Positions 1 through 7,286 of a DNA stretch of 64,000 nucleotides are shown here, piece after piece (position 1 is the stretch's first letter; every line of letters starts with the position of its first letter). The notes under the pieces are model-generated. The model was not told the DNA's origin, made no database searches, and worked only from the letters and a program-made list of their open reading frames with translations. The DNA is taken from positions 1 through 64,000 of the forward strand of contig JAITRF010000034.1 of NCBI GenBank assembly GCA_031288535.1, written 5' to 3'. Origin of the DNA: Desulfovibrio sp. Lineage in GTDB: Bacteria > Desulfobacterota > Desulfovibrionia > Desulfovibrionales > Desulfovibrionaceae. The translations under genes and the position numbers were made by a program.

Positions 1-829
1 GACCCCCAGATTTTCGAACAGGGGCCCGTCAAAGGACGCGGAGTATTCGTGCTTGCGGAACTTGGGCTGCAGATCGGCCGTGCTGGAATTTTCCCTGTCA
101 AGGGACTGGTCCTCGGTAAAGCGCATTTTCGTCCAGAGATCGTTGGTGTGCCGGTACTTGCCCATGACGTGCCATCTGTCCATGCGCGCGTCGCGCAGCT
201 TGGCGTCCACCACGCCGCCAGTGAAACCGCCGTATTCCGCGGAAATGTTTTCCGAATATACCGTGATGGATTCAAGGAGGCTGCGGTCGAGGAAGAGGTT
301 CTGCGCCTCGCCCCGGGGCTGGCCGGTGGCGGCGGCGGCCTCGCCGTGATACAGGCCGCCGGGGTTCATGTTGCTGTTGTTGCTGACCCCGTTCAGGGTG
401 AAGTTGTTCTCGTAGTGCTTGCTGCCCCGGATGGAAATTCGGGGCGGGGCGATTTCACCGCCAAGGGCGCCGCTACGCGAATTCTGATCGAACTGGATGT
501 TGGATTTGCCCCGCAGGGCGTCGGTCACCGTGCCGGTGGCAGAAGGGGCTAGTTTGATGAAGTTCCGGTCGAGCGTCGTGGCGCCGGGATGATCGTCGTC
601 CTCCCGCACCTGCACTTCTTCCAGCCTGTACACCTGGCCTTGTTCCGGGGTATTGGCCGGCTCTTCCGCCGTTTGATGGGGGGGGGGGGGGGGGGGGTGT
701 TTTGTCAGCCACGGCAAAGGCCGGGCACAGGGCGAGAGCCAGTCCCAGAGCTGCCGCCAGAAGGCGCGGCATGCTTTCCCAACGCCGCGCCGCCGCAATG
801 CGCGCCGTCATTGTGATGTGTGTCGCCAT
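1..829 (-). CDS. TonB-dependent receptor, N-terminal part, runs off window; frameshifted at a poly-C20 tract (putative phase-OFF)
   Basis: ATG at 829 with GGAGGG RBS, signal peptide MPRLLAAALGLALALCPAFAVADKT. Minus-strand C20 tract (678-697). In the other frame after the tract: QTAEEPANTPEQGQVYRLEEVQVREDDDHPGATTLDRNFIKLAPSATGTVTDALRGKSNIQFDQN...ITVYSENISAEYGGFTGGVVDAKLRD, typical plug domain. Confidence 0.85.
678..697. repeat. Mononucleotide G20 (coding-strand C20) tract, candidate slipped-strand phase-variation switch
   Basis: 20 consecutive G on + strand, inside the 5' coding region of the TonB-dependent receptor. Confidence 0.9.
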
Positions 830-959
830 TCGGTCCCTCCCGATTTTCATTCGTTGTGCCGCAATTCGGCCTGTCGCCTCGTACATCGGCGGAAAGGGAC
901 CCGGGAGATCCGGACGGCGGCGGCGGGCTGACGGCGCATGATCAACTCCTTCAAGGTTG

Positions 960-2210
960 TCAGGTTCCCCGCGTCCCGGTTTCGCGCCCGAGCGGACCGA
1001 AGGCCAGGGCGGCGATGCAGCCGGGCAGGCCGGTGCAGGCGACAAGAAACAGGGCCGCGAGATCAAGCCTGCGCGCCCTGCGGCAGCAGGCGTAGAACAG
1101 ACCCAGAGCGCAGACGACGCCCAGCGCGGCGAAACCGGGATTCGGGGCAAAACGCAGGTCAAAGAACTGGCTCAACACGAACGGGGTGAGCAGGGACAGG
1201 CCCTTGTCCAAAAGTTCGGACCGGGCCCGGACGGCTTCCGGCAACAAGGCGCTGTACCGGCGCAGGGGACGGAAGTCCCGATCCAGCGCGGCATAGCGCA
1301 CCGGCGCGGCAACGCCGGACAAATCGTGTTCAATCATGGTCCGGTACAGGGCCGTGGAACGCAGACTGAGCGTGTTGACGCGCGGATCCCAACTTTCAGA
1401 CGGCAGCCTGAGCAGGCGGTCGCCGTACATAAGCAGATACGGCCCCGCCCCGGCCGCAAGCGCGGCGTAAAAGCCCCGGCTTTCGTGTTCCTCGACAATA
1501 AGGGCCAGCGTATCCCGCGGCGCGACGAGGCCGGTGGCGCGGCACACGGGTTCGCCACGCGCCATCTGCAGTTGAAATATCCCGCCATTGCCGTCAATGA
1601 AGACCAGCCCCTCGTCAAAGGGCTTGTAGATCGAGGGATTGCTTGCGGCCAGGCGCAGGGGAAATACCGCCCCGGCCCGTTTTATTTCGGCTGTGAAGCG
1701 GACGGATTTTTCCCCGTTCAGACTCCCGTCGGCGCAACGCAGAAAGCTGATCCCGTCTGCCCCGACGACCAGCACGTCGTCGGGCAGTTCGAGCGATACT
1801 CCTTCAGGGACGGATTCAAACAGCGCATGCACAGGAAATTTCCGCCCGAAAATCTCGCGCGGGGTCAGGCTGCTGAAGTAGCGCAAATTCTTTTCCGCCT
1901 CTTCAAAGGAAAAAACGCGCCCGTCAAGCGTAATGGGGAAGCCGCCCCATTTGCGGACGTTGCCCGGAAAAACCAGCGGCATAAGCCGCTGTGCTTCGCG
2001 CGTGGGGAGTAAACGGCCGTCCTCGTCCCGAAAGCGTATGCCCTTGGGACCCATTTCCCAGATCATGAAGCGGCGCGTAAGCGGGCTGTATTCGCCGCTC
2101 AACTGGAAACGATCCGCCCGCGTGGCCCGGCCGTAGACATAGGGGATGAACCAGACCAGCACGAGGACGCAGATCAGCATGGCGGCAAAGCGCGGCGTAT
2201 GGATGCTCAC
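960..2210 (-). CDS. Membrane-anchored protein of an ABC-2 type locus (DUF4857-like)
   Basis: GTG start at 2210 overlapping the upstream stop (GTGA); N-terminal TM (FAAMLICVLVLVWFIPYVYG) and C-terminal TM pair; family name is from memory. Confidence 0.6.
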   Translation of the reverse strand: MSIHTPRFAAMLICVLVLVWFIPYVYGRATRADRFQLSGEYSPLTRRFMIWEMGPKGIRFRDEDGRLLPTREAQRLMPLVFPGNVRKWGGFPITLDGRVFSFEEAEKNLRYFSSLTPREIFGRKFPVHALFESVPEGVSLELPDDVLVVGADGISFLRCADGSLNGEKSVRFTAEIKRAGAVFPLRLAASNPSIYKPFDEGLVFIDGNGGIFQLQMARGEPVCRATGLVAPRDTLALIVEEHESRGFYAALAAGAGPYLLMYGDRLLRLPSESWDPRVNTLSLRSTALYRTMIEHDLSGVAAPVRYAALDRDFRPLRRYSALLPEAVRARSELLDKGLSLLTPFVLSQFFDLRFAPNPGFAALGVVCALGLFYACCRRARRLDLAALFLVACTGLPGCIAALAFGPLGRETGTRGT

Positions 2211-2899
2211 CTTTGTCCCTCCTTGACGCGCAGGGCCGCGGATTCGAGCGCCAGGGGCCAGAGCAGGCAGGCCAGGACATACGGCCACATGTTGCCGCCC
2301 AGCGGAGAATAGCCATTGCCGGCCGTCAGCAGGGTGACATAGCCAAAGCCGAGCAGGCCGAACAGAATTGCGCGCGCCGGACGCGGCTCGGCCAGCACGG
2401 CGGCCGTGGAGCAATAGGAGGCAAAACCGGCCAAACCCCAAGGCGGCAGGGTGCCGAGCATGGGCAGGGCCAGTTCGCGGGGAAAGCCCATGCGCGCGAA
2501 GACCAGGGCCAGACCACCGACGGCGGCGCAAAGCAGCGCAAGATTGAGCAGCAGGCCGTAACCGACCGCCGTGTACATGGAAACCCGGTAGGACACCGGC
2601 AGGTGGAACATAAGACGCAGCCTGCGGCCCGAGCATTCCGGCACGAACTGCAAGGCCGCGAAAAACATTCCGGCGGCGGCCAAAACCCACGACAAGCGGC
2701 TGAAATGCACGGTCTGCTTGACGATAAGCTCATACCACAAAGCCGGCGCGCCGTGCATGGCTACAAAGCCCTTATACATCAGGCTGACGTCGCACAACGC
2801 GGCCGCAAGCGCCGCAAAGGGGATCCAGAACAGCAGGCGGACCTTGATCCATTCCTTCATGCACGCCGCCCGCAGAATGCTCCGTATATCGCCGCCCAT
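2207..2899 (-). CDS. ABC transporter permease-like multi-TM membrane protein
   Basis: Multiple hydrophobic helices; directly after ATPase gene and overlapping next gene. Confidence 0.65.
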   Translation of the reverse strand: MGGDIRSILRAACMKEWIKVRLLFWIPFAALAAALCDVSLMYKGFVAMHGAPALWYELIVKQTVHFSRLSWVLAAAGMFFAALQFVPECSGRRLRLMFHLPVSYRVSMYTAVGYGLLLNLALLCAAVGGLALVFARMGFPRELALPMLGTLPPWGLAGFASYCSTAAVLAEPRPARAILFGLLGFGYVTLLTAGNGYSPLGGNMWPYVLACLLWPLALESAALRVKEGQR

Positions 2900-2900
2900 A

Positions 2901-3818
2901 TCAGTACCTGCCGGTAAGACCGATGAACGCGTCTTCAAAACTCAGGGGCTGCTGCGCAAGCTGGTCCAGAGCCTCGGTTTCAAGCCCCAGACCCGCAAGG
3001 TGGCCGCGCATGGCGTCGAGCGGCGCGAACCCGTACACGGCGACGTCGCGCCTGCCGGCCTCAATACTATGCACCGGGCCTCCCCGGGTCTGCGTCGGCG
3101 CAAGCTCCCGAAGGCGCGGCTCATAACGCGCCGGCAGTGTGTACCCGAAAAATCCCGCCATAAAGCTGTCTCTGGTTCCGCTGACGATAATTTCGCCCTC
3201 ATGGATGATCAGCACGTCGTCGAGAAAAGAATCCAGTTCCTGAACGATGTGCGAGGTCAACAGCACGGTCGTGCCCCGCACGTCCACATATTCGCGCAGA
3301 AATTCCAGGAACAGGCGGCGGTAGCCGACGTCAAGCCCCATGGAATAATCGTCCAGAATCATCAGTTCGGGGCATTGGGCGAGGATCAGCCCCAGAATTA
3401 CCTGCGAACGCTGCCCGCAGGACAGGCGCGACACCTTGCGGCTGTGAGGAACGTCCACAAGACGGTTGACGAGATCGTAGTAAAGATCGCGATCCCAGGC
3501 CGGGTAAAAGGCCGCGTGGTAGCGCTCGATCTCCGCGATAGTCATGAAATCGTACTGCACGAAGCCTTCATGGAGCAGACCTATCCGGCGCCGCTCCAGG
3601 GGGGGAATGGCGTGGCCGGGGTGGCCGAGTATCGAACACGCGCCCGCATCCGGCCGCAAAAAACCCATCAGTATGTTGATGGTCGTGCTTTTGCCCGCCC
3701 CGTTTTTACCGAGCAGGCCGACAATGCCCCCCTGCTCCACCGTAAAGCTAACTCCGTGCAGCACTTCTCTGCCTCCATAGGCGAACCGCAGACCCTCGCA
3801 GGCGATCAGCGCGATCAT
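2901..3818 (-). CDS. ABC transporter ATP-binding protein
   Basis: Walker A GLLGKNGAGKST, signature LSCGQ, Walker B LMILDDYSMGLD, H-loop LLTSHIVQEL. Confidence 0.92.
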   Translation of the reverse strand: MIALIACEGLRFAYGGREVLHGVSFTVEQGGIVGLLGKNGAGKSTTINILMGFLRPDAGACSILGHPGHAIPPLERRRIGLLHEGFVQYDFMTIAEIERYHAAFYPAWDRDLYYDLVNRLVDVPHSRKVSRLSCGQRSQVILGLILAQCPELMILDDYSMGLDVGYRRLFLEFLREYVDVRGTTVLLTSHIVQELDSFLDDVLIIHEGEIIVSGTRDSFMAGFFGYTLPARYEPRLRELAPTQTRGGPVHSIEAGRRDVAVYGFAPLDAMRGHLAGLGLETEALDQLAQQPLSFEDAFIGLTGRY

Positions 3819-6703
3819 GGCCCTTTTCCTTCGGAAGGGGGCGGGGCGTCGGCCGTTACGATCAGGCAGGAGAAGGGGGCCTCGGCAAAGATGGCGCGCG
3901 CCTCGGCCGACACCGCTTCGGGGGGGATAGAAGCGACCAGGTCGGCGAATTCATTATTCCATTGCGGGTAGGGACGGCCGTACAACAGTTCGTCGCTCAC
4001 CATGCGGTGCCAGACTTGCGTCTTTTTCCGGTTGGTGGACCAGGCGGTCAGCATGGGTTTACGCGCCAGGTCGAGTTCTTCTCCGCCCACTCCCTGTTCG
4101 GCAAGCGCCCCGGCAACGGAGCGGGCCGCCTCCAGGACTTGGCCGCTGTTCGCGGGAGTGGCGGAAATTTCGAACTGCAGCAGACCGAAATCCTCGTCGT
4201 CCACAAAATTCCAGTAGAACGCGGAAGGACTGTAGGATGCGCCGAGTTCTTCGCGCAACCGCGCGCGCAGCCGATCCCGAAGAACGAGAGCCACAAACCG
4301 GCGGGTCGCGAGCAGGGACCGATTTTTCTCATCCCCGAGCGGGCGGAACCAGGCCATACGCACCACGGTTTTGGCGACGGGGTCGTCCACCACGCGCACA
4401 TGCCGTTCGGTTTCGGGAAAAGAGGGCGGCGCGGCCAGACGCGGCCCGAGGGCGGCGGGCGCCGGCGCGGCGCCGAAAAGTCCGGCCGCCAGGGCCAAAG
4501 CCGCCTCCGGTTCAAAATCGCCGCTGATAAGCAGATGCGCGGGACCGCCTCTTCTGGTTTCCCTGACGCTGGCGACAATTTCCGCCAGACCGACGCCCCT
4601 GGCGTCCGTTTCTTCCAAAGCGGCGAAGCGTTTTGCCGGGCCGAAAAAATATCTCCGCCATTCCGCCCTGTCCACGCCGTCCACAGTGTGGAAACGCCGG
4701 CGGCTGTTCAGGGCCAGGCTTTGCAATACCCTGTTCCGGGCGATTTCCGTAGGCGCAGGATCCGTGTACTGCGTCCAGACGGCCTGGAGCATGAGCTCCA
4801 GATGTTCGCTGCCTCCGGAAGCGGCAATGGACGAAGACTGCGCGCCGTAGTCCTCGACTACTTTGATGCCGCGCCCCTGTAGCAGGAAATCCGTGTCCGC
4901 CCTGGTCAACGCCCCGATTCCCCCCTGCCCGAGCACTGCGGTCGTCATGCGGGCGAGCGGCACCGCGGCATCGGGCAGGGCCAGAAACCCGTTGCCGAAG
5001 AACAGACTGGCCATGACCGTATTTTTTTCGTACCGGATCGGGAGCAGATGGATGCGCAGGCCGTTTTCCAGAACCGCCGTGCGCAGCGTCGGGGCGTCCT
5101 CCCCCAGAGAACGGGTCCGCAATTCCGGCAACCGCGCGGGAGGCGGCGGCAATTCAAGATAGGGGAAAGGCCGGGCGCCGGCTTCGCCGGTAGCGATGGA
5201 CAGGGTATCGGCCGTTTTCCACGCTTCCAGGATATCCTGTTCCGCGTTCGGGAGTTCCAGATTGCCGCTGAGGTGGATGGTCCGGTTTTCAGGAGCGAAG
5301 GCGGAGCGCAGGGCCGCGTTGACCTGATCCGGAGTGATGGCCGGGGCCATTGCGGCGAAATTTTCCCGATCGTTTTCCTCGGTAGTGAACACCTTGTCCT
5401 GATTGGCGGCGGCGACGAACATGCCGGCGATTTCGCCGCTGGAGAGGCCGGCGCGTTTGCCGGCGGCGCGCTCGAGGCTCTGCCCGAGCAGGCGCTTGGC
5501 CTGCTCCACTTCCCTCTGCGAAAATCCCCGCGCCAGCGCGCCTTGCATTTCTTCGGCCAGCGCCCGCAACGCCGTCTTCCAGTTCGACGCCTCCGTAACG
5601 GCGCCCATGCTCACGACAGGCATCAGGCTGTCGCGGGAACGATCCCGGAAATGCGCGGCGTTCCATATCCCCGGCTGCCGCTCTTCGCGCATTTTCAGGC
5701 GTTGGCGCAGGCACAGGGCCGCGACGTCGCCGGTGAAAGCGGCCCGGAGATCCTCTGAGGTGTTGCGTTGATGCCGGCGCGGGTGCAGGACCAGCACGGA
5801 AATATGGACCCCGGTGATGTTCCGGGTATGCAAAACGGCGCGCAATGGAGGCGTTTCCGGCGTGCCCAGGGACGTTATTTCCGGCGCGGGACGCTTTGCG
5901 CGCATATCCGAGAAAGCCTGCTCAATCATGGGTTCGATCCCGCCGGGATCGACTTCGCCGACGGCCACCAGCATCATCCGCTCCGGCGTGTACCACCTGT
6001 GGTAGAAATTGAGGAGTTTTTCCCGGTTGGCGCTACGAACGCAGGCCTCGGTGCCGATCGTCTCGTGAACGAAGGCCGTGCCCGCAAAGACGGTCTGCCG
6101 GTACCGTACCCCCGCCCTGGCTTCTTCGCTGTCTCTGGCGTTCTTTTCCGCGAGGATGACGCCCACTTCGTCCCGGACCTCTTTTTCATCCATGGTCATG
6201 CCGTCTGCAAAGTCGCGCAGGATGTCCAGACCCATGCGCAGAGACCCGGAATCGGCCGAAGCCAGATTGAGCTTGTACACTGTTTCCGCAAACGAGGTAT
6301 GGGCATTGGTGTCGCCGCCGAAACTCATGCCGTTCTTCTGGAAGAAAGGAATCAGCGATCCGGGGGGGAAACGCCGTGTACCGTTGAAGGCCATGTGTTC
6401 GACAAAATGCGCGTACCCCCGCTCCTCGTCGGTTTCCATCAGTGAACCGGCCTGGACGTTGAGATACAGGCTGACGCGTCCAGACGGCACGGCGTTGGGA
6501 ATGACGGCGTAGCGCATGCCGTTCGTGAGCCGGCCGAACCGGACCGCCGGATCCGGCGCGAGATCGCTGCCTTCATGCGCCCATGGCCCGCCGTACCAGG
6601 AAAGTTCCGCGGCCTGCCCCCGCGCTTGGGCGAAGAGCAGCAGGTACGGCAGCAAAACAAGCGCGGCGAGGCGGCGCGACAGCAGAGTCAATGTCGGGAT
6701 CAT
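3815..6703 (-). CDS. M16 (pitrilysin) family zinc metallopeptidase, secreted
   Basis: HFVEHMAFNGT inverted zinc motif (HxxEH); two-half M16 architecture, 962 aa; N-terminal signal-like sequence. Confidence 0.93.
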   Translation of the reverse strand: MIPTLTLLSRRLAALVLLPYLLLFAQARGQAAELSWYGGPWAHEGSDLAPDPAVRFGRLTNGMRYAVIPNAVPSGRVSLYLNVQAGSLMETDEERGYAHFVEHMAFNGTRRFPPGSLIPFFQKNGMSFGGDTNAHTSFAETVYKLNLASADSGSLRMGLDILRDFADGMTMDEKEVRDEVGVILAEKNARDSEEARAGVRYRQTVFAGTAFVHETIGTEACVRSANREKLLNFYHRWYTPERMMLVAVGEVDPGGIEPMIEQAFSDMRAKRPAPEITSLGTPETPPLRAVLHTRNITGVHISVLVLHPRRHQRNTSEDLRAAFTGDVAALCLRQRLKMREERQPGIWNAAHFRDRSRDSLMPVVSMGAVTEASNWKTALRALAEEMQGALARGFSQREVEQAKRLLGQSLERAAGKRAGLSSGEIAGMFVAAANQDKVFTTEENDRENFAAMAPAITPDQVNAALRSAFAPENRTIHLSGNLELPNAEQDILEAWKTADTLSIATGEAGARPFPYLELPPPPARLPELRTRSLGEDAPTLRTAVLENGLRIHLLPIRYEKNTVMASLFFGNGFLALPDAAVPLARMTTAVLGQGGIGALTRADTDFLLQGRGIKVVEDYGAQSSSIAASGGSEHLELMLQAVWTQYTDPAPTEIARNRVLQSLALNSRRRFHTVDGVDRAEWRRYFFGPAKRFAALEETDARGVGLAEIVASVRETRRGGPAHLLISGDFEPEAALALAAGLFGAAPAPAALGPRLAAPPSFPETERHVRVVDDPVAKTVVRMAWFRPLGDEKNRSLLATRRFVALVLRDRLRARLREELGASYSPSAFYWNFVDDEDFGLLQFEISATPANSGQVLEAARSVAGALAEQGVGGEELDLARKPMLTAWSTNRKKTQVWHRMVSDELLYGRPYPQWNNEFADLVASIPPEAVSAEARAIFAEAPFSCLIVTADAPPPSEGKGP

Positions 6704-6736
6704 GGCTCTCTCAAGTGAAATTATTGAATAAAATAT

Positions 6737-6751
6737 TGATTATGACTATCA
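6737..6751. promoter_or_regulatory. Putative Fur box upstream of the M16-ABC-TonB operon
   Basis: TGATTATGACTATCA matches 12 of 14 specified positions of TGATAATnATTATCA. Confidence 0.5.
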
Positions 6752-7020
6752 AGTTCAAAATAGTTGAAATTTTTCCGGCTGTCAAGCGTCTCTGCGCAAA
6801 GCCGAGGCATCCAGAGCAATTTCACTTTGAGATTATGCTTGTGCTGGTGGCGGCCCGTTACGCCACATGTCAGGCAAGAGGCGGGGACGCAGAGATAGTG
6901 ATCGAGGCCGTATTGCCGCGCCACCGTGTCGATGTATCCGAGATCGGCTTCCGGCAACGGGACGTTCACGCGCACACGCTTGCTGCGCGGCGCCACCGTA
7001 ACAAAACTGGGGAAAATTTA

Positions 7021-7279
7021 AGGAAGGAAGGACTGATTTATTTTTGAGATATCTTTGCTCTCTGTAGTCAAAATAAATATTTAAACGAGTTACTGTCGAG
7101 GGGGTCCGGGGGAAATCATTATCGCTGCCGTCGTCATCCGTACGGCTCGAAGTTTGGACGGAATTACGCCAAAAACAGACACCCACGGCTGTCGTCATCC
7201 GTCCGGCTCGAATACTTGCCTACGGCTGACGCTCCTCCGGCGGGGTTTGGGGCGGAGCCCCAATTAATCAGCTCTTCCT
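7021..7279 (+). repeat. Dispersed ~200-260 bp non-coding repeat, copy A (with internal 61-bp-offset duplication)
   Basis: Inverted near-identical copy at 27243-27440; shared blocks CTGATTTATTTTTGAGAT, ATTATCGCTGCCGTCGTCATCCGTACGGCTCGAAG, CTTGCCTACGGCTGACGCT. Confidence 0.85.
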
Positions 7280-7286
7280 TAATGAA

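Follow-up and report, generated by a model that had tools for sequence, protein, structure and literature searches.

A FusA-family receptor and a PqqL/FusC-type protease encoded with a predicted Yej peptide importer and a DUF4857 module in Desulfovibrionaceae

The locus at the start of the 64-kb stretch of Desulfovibrio DNA analyzed here (the window) is classified from its sequence as a protease-associated import system of the Fus and YddB-PqqL type. This classification follows from the receptor, whose profile matches FusA and YddB, and from the protease, which falls in the PqqL/FusC group, and it supports the likeness to Fus loci that had been proposed in a preliminary description of the same DNA. 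Relative to the known Fus and YddB-PqqL systems, the new part is probably the inner-membrane portion, which combines a YejABEF peptide importer with a module of an ABC ATPase, a permease, and a DUF4857 protein; in addition, the receptor is probably phase-variable. These findings would extend the Fus family to the Desulfovibrionaceae and, within this one family, the conserved peptide importer offers a concrete and testable answer to the question of what becomes of fragments after an imported substrate has been cut.

Five genes, all on the minus strand, occupy window positions 1-6703 in the order M16 protease, ABC ATPase, permease, DUF4857 protein, and 5' part of the receptor gene (Table 1). Pfam matches and frame calls bear out both the five co-directional genes of the preliminary description and the tight packing of the first four: the M16 and ABC genes overlap by ATGA, the ABC and permease genes are separated by 1 bp, and the permease and DUF4857 genes overlap by GTGA, with 130 bp between the DUF4857 gene and the receptor gene. 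The protein that had been called DUF4857-like is a true member of that family. Because window base 1 is also the first base of its contig (C149), the receptor is cut after approximately 266 of approximately 860 residues. Window positions 6704-7286 are intergenic and contain a small open frame (91 aa) and, at approximately 7125-7210, short repeated segments.

Table 1. Positions of the genes and sequence elements of the locus in the window.
Feature	Position	Strand	Details
M16 metallopeptidase, predicted N-terminal signal sequence, PqqL/FusC type	3815..6703	-	962 aa; Pfam PF00675 + PF05193
ABC transporter ATPase	2901..3818	-	PF00005 2.8e-20
Membrane permease, predicted partner of the ABC ATPase	2207..2899	-	no Pfam family
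DUF4857 protein	960..2210	-	416 aa; PF16149 2.5e-51
FusA-family TonB-dependent receptor, 5' part only	1..829	-	Plug PF07715 3e-07; start ATG 829
Fur-like box GATAGTCATAATCAATATT	6732..6750	-	approximately 28-47 bases upstream of the M16 start codon
C20 run (coding strand) separating the signal peptide from the plug; putative phase-variation tract	678..697	-	frame analysis

When compared with PDB structures, a profile built from 12 full-length orthologs of the receptor matched FusA (4ZGV, 1.5e-163) and YddB (6OFR, 3.6e-106) and nothing else at 1e-5. Similarly, a fold search with an AlphaFold2 model of the receptor (mean pLDDT 71) returned FusA (5e-56) and YddB (4e-47), followed by the next match at 3e-29. 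As had been anticipated, the receptor groups with FusA and YddB in both searches and not with cobalamin or siderophore receptors; a siderophore, cobalamin, or SusC-type receptor is ruled out, with siderophore receptors lying far behind. The fragment encoded in the window (the first ~266 residues) is 54% identical over residues 55-270 to the full-length receptor of Desulfovibrio sp. OH1186_COT-070 (locus L003), and the profile of orthologs places it in the FusA family and apart from the remaining TonB-dependent receptors.

The M16 profile, in turn, matched the PDB structures 9LDY (M16 family; 4e-116), PqqL (9e-112), and FusC (3e-62), other M16 proteins being far weaker, and this ranking rules out a housekeeping processing peptidase or a mitochondrial-type M16 protein. 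The zinc residues H98-x-x-E101-H102 and E178 were invariant in four orthologs and again in 11, and the N-terminus, judged by eye, resembles a signal peptide. The protein is accordingly described here as a predicted exported, full-length member of the PqqL/FusC subfamily that retains its zinc site. Its supposed affinity to FusC is reflected in the third-ranked match and its supposed non-cytoplasmic location in the signal-peptide-like start, yet by profile it lies nearer to PqqL than to FusC. The family was defined by Grinter et al. (2019; PMC6793856), by whom PqqL and FusC are assigned to a single new M16 subfamily and Fur control and a periplasmic location are reported for PqqL, with its substrates left open; the same paper reports that, in iron-limited LB, PqqL and YddB gave E. 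coli no growth support.

When 297 genomes of the order were searched with an M16 alignment, 14 carriers were recovered, all of which belong to the window's own family (Desulfovibrionaceae) and which represent seven genera; one of these genomes (G118) is apparently the one that contains L003. With the window genome set aside, together with a carrier whose locus is truncated by the end of its contig (G288), the gene context was readable in 12 cases, and in each of the 12 the genes for the receptor, M16, ABC ATPase, permease, DUF4857 protein, YejA, and YejB occur together. Receptor and protease genes are thus linked in the window and in every readable context of other Desulfovibrionaceae. The survey across the family that the preliminary description had proposed adds YejA and YejB to the five genes, which form an incomplete unit to which YejABEF and a TonB energizer would also belong. 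Among named genomes, the closest M16 protein found is that of OH1186_COT-070 (41% identity), in which these five genes recur in an identical order, the receptor being complete (862 aa) and its gene followed by yejA, yejB, yejE, and yejF; the ABC ATPases of the two loci are 52% identical. This co-directional layout, M16-ABC-permease-DUF4857-receptor-yejABEF, is found in L003, G034, G063, G095, G129, and G176. A second layout, in which M16-receptor-ABC-permease-DUF4857 is divergent from yejAB, is found in G236, G190, G138, G233, G158, and G218, where the stretch examined covers just the first yej genes. Additionally, on a short MAG contig (L004), M16 is followed directly by yejA, yejB, and yejE.

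The sole strong YejA match in the window genome lies at the very start of another contig (C61), from residue 289 on, and is followed by yejB, yejE, yejF, and genes for DUF3450, TtpC-like, ExbB, ExbD, TonB, and TPR proteins. In G034, the identical order forms one uninterrupted operon after the receptor gene and yejA. Because the gene order matches that operon, C61 can with strong support from synteny be placed behind C149, with approximately 2.7 kb missing between the two contigs. Further, the complete A-B-E-F order of yej is present in L003/L132, L119, and L149-L152, and genomes of the family sample that do not carry the operon gave no strong YejA match. From this gene order, YejABEF and the TonB energizer are assigned to the import unit. 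The likeness to the YejABEF peptide and microcin C importer consists of a binding protein of SBP family 5, a YejB protein above the NCBIfam cut-off for the microcin C permease subfamily (501 vs 445 bits), and a YejE protein slightly below its cut-off (403 vs 439); in contrast to that importer, the genes here are embedded in a receptor-protease cluster. The TonB part resembles the TonB2 set of Vibrio, which consists of TtpB (DUF3450), TtpC, ExbB2, ExbD2, TonB2, and TtpD (TPR) (PMC6957404), in that the six corresponding genes stand side by side both on C61 and in G034, but here the set immediately follows yejF in the import operon. A literature search recovered no paper on Yej together with FusA or M16, nor any on Fus in Desulfovibrio, and the main text of PMC6793856 contains none of the terms 'Yej', 'oligopeptide', 'ABC transporter', or 'Desulfo'. 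Downstream of the G034 operon, just past a large open frame, there are ten copies of GGAA (L134:11157-11196, contig C5).

The ABC-permease-DUF4857 module represents a second inner-membrane component. The DUF4857 protein is predicted to have one N-terminal helix, C-terminal membrane helices, and a beta-rich extracytoplasmic domain (AlphaFold2 pLDDT 88); a search with the predicted fold gave no convincing match (TM ~0.2), and the permease had no Pfam match. In every one of the 12 readable contexts, the permease ortholog is flanked by the ABC and DUF4857 genes, and in G034 (L119:4372-6366) the permease and DUF4857 protein are fused into one protein of 664 aa, which supports the idea that the two act as one complex. 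What looked like an ABC-permease-DUF4857 fusion in G024 consists of overlapping frames, leaving that in G034 as the only true fusion of permease and DUF4857. A distinct module of this kind is present in the locus, as had been proposed, but it is not restricted to loci with M16: copies that lack an M16 neighbor lie beside a Fur-family gene (L123:311-778), beside feoB (L124:9661-12171), and near DUF4198 proteins. In a further case, from a distant genome (L172; G340:C45:109000-128500), the module accompanies a FusA-type receptor and a TonB2-like set, with neither M16 nor Yej; a gene for a lipoprotein-like protein of 1060 aa precedes the FusA-type receptor locus there. The DUF4857 locus BT3625-3633 of B. 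thetaiotaomicron, which is upregulated 37-128-fold under iron depletion, likewise includes a receptor, an ABC ATPase, a hypothetical protein, and a DUF4857 protein, but it differs in its PepSY and DUF4876 proteins and in that no M16 or Yej protein is listed for it (PMC10434189). Because the module adjoins a Fur-family gene or feoB, and because of the response of BT3625-3633 to iron depletion, we infer that the task of this so far uncharacterized module lies on the iron side of uptake.

A link to iron is also suggested by the region upstream of the M16 gene. The putative Fur box of the preliminary description holds up as a Fur-like site, matching the Fur consensus GATAATGATAATCATTATC at 15 of 19 positions, a consensus that is uncalibrated for this host because no site with at least 13 matches was found upstream of feoB in the same genome. 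The box is the top-scoring 19-mer of the whole window, and when its own region was shuffled 300 times with dinucleotides preserved, this score was never attained. Comparable sites recur upstream of most orthologs: eight of 13 upstream regions had a shuffle p ≤0.04, and Fisher's combined p was ~1e-8 over all 13 regions, which are not independent, and 1.5e-5 with approximately one region per genus. Because the genomes are related, these statistics are treated as indications. Upstream of M16 in L003, G095, and G129, Fur-like sites were absent or weak.

Expression of the receptor may be subject to a further level of control. The C20 run is the only G/C homopolymer above 8 in the window. With 20 C, the frame opened by ATG 829 encodes the signal peptide and ends after 118 codons; among lengths of 14-26 C analyzed, those of 16, 19, 22, or 25 allow the frame to read on into the receptor plug. 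A change in repeat length would thus shift the frame, as in contingency genes, although the tract is known from one assembly. The length-variable switch described earlier is therefore upheld as regards a tract in a frame-shifting position, and the switch itself is putative. That the tract is instead an assembly error, or the gene a decayed one, is unlikely while retaining some weight: the species is represented by a single assembly, a draft of 153 contigs in which homopolymer length is unreliable, and the contig ends 677 bases past the tract. At two other places in this genome, long C runs also lie near contig ends (C78:41-64, 24 C, and C108:17-38, 22 C; L090, L091), with no G/C runs of 12-19 elsewhere in the genome; these may be further contingency tracts or assembly effects. 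However, the coding sequence is intact on both sides of the C20 tract (signal peptide and plug), and the receptor gene of L003 carries (AG)8 at nearly the same place (nucleotides 128-144, vs 132-152 for the C tract). The frame is kept with eight units of this repeat and lost with seven or nine, and no other dinucleotide repeat of at least six units occurs in the 635 kb of loci surveyed. A comparable repeat at that place was absent from 11 of 12 orthologous receptors. Because two different slippage-prone repeats occur at one site of the receptor gene, phase variation is favored, and the receptor is probably phase-variable; a switchable receptor would be expected if it were also a door for phages or toxins.

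Taken together, a likely model is that the FusA-family receptor, driven by TonB, admits to the periplasm a protein or peptide that carries iron, and that the M16 protease would capture and cut it there. YejABEF would then import the resulting fragments into the cytoplasm, and the ABC-permease-DUF4857 module would handle the iron or cofactor set free. Fur would repress the operon when iron is plentiful, and slippage of the C tract would turn the receptor off and on in this lineage. A more ambitious version, offered tentatively and on balance doubtful, is that a single iron-controlled and phase-variable operon combines capture, its own energizer, cutting, and separate routes for peptide (YejABEF) and metal (ABC-permease-DUF4857), such that both iron and amino acids are used. 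The cargo could also be a small peptide (ribosomally made, a peptide metallophore, or another oligopeptide) in place of a folded iron protein, with M16 trimming it and Yej importing it as with microcin C. This would agree with the confident assignment of YejB to the microcin C permease subfamily and its linkage in every readable context, with the ability of M16 proteases to cleave peptides as well as proteins, and with the occurrence of FusA-family receptors elsewhere in the phylum without protease or Yej. We nevertheless regard it as improbable, given that structures are known for only two relatives of the receptor, namely the ferredoxin receptor FusA and YddB, whose binding site is described as protein-sized (PMC6793856), and that Fur-like control points to iron. 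Yej systems are tied to antimicrobial-peptide tolerance in some bacteria. A system that takes up antimicrobial peptides of host or bacterial origin and renders them harmless by degradation would suit an on/off receptor with a role in conflict, but it would leave the Fur-like sites, the FusA-family receptor, and the iron association of DUF4857 unexplained, and is considered very improbable.

The preferred model, in which an iron-bearing protein or peptide is imported and cut, shares with Pectobacterium Fus (FusA, FusB, FusC, and FusD) a FusA-family receptor, a signal-bearing M16 protease, a TonB-type energizer within the cluster, an inner-membrane transporter, and a link to iron. In contrast to Fus, the inner-membrane step is assigned here to YejABEF and the ABC-permease-DUF4857 module, the TonB part is a six-gene set of the Vibrio TonB2 type, the receptor gene contains a C tract, the host belongs to the Desulfovibrionaceae, and ferredoxin is a candidate cargo. 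YddB-PqqL of E. coli is similar in its homologous receptor and M16 protease, the window protease being closer to PqqL than to FusC, and in regulation, with Fur control reported there (PMC6793856) and Fur-like sites present here; it differs from the present locus, in which a Yej importer, a DUF4857 module, and a TonB set are linked.

The distribution of the operon is patchy. With M16 in just 14 of the 297 genomes of the order, a widespread presence in the phylum is ruled out. Relatives of the M16 protein in Novosphingobium, Vibrio, and Spirochaetota do not have this neighborhood, and only two loci, both from Zoogloea, have a FusA-type receptor. In a genome of the same genus (G008), the adjoining mazG and AI-2E-family genes are approximately 90% identical to those of the window, and a rubrerythrin-like gene stands where the window has the operon; because such closely similar neighbors occur without it, gain or loss of the operon would be recent on this scale. 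Elsewhere in the phylum, in families other than this one, FusA-type receptors have different gene neighborhoods that include no M16 or Yej. Several of these receptors from other Desulfobacterota families (L174, L176-L179) adjoin genes for proteins of approximately 1000-1170 aa, several of which have lipoprotein-like starts.
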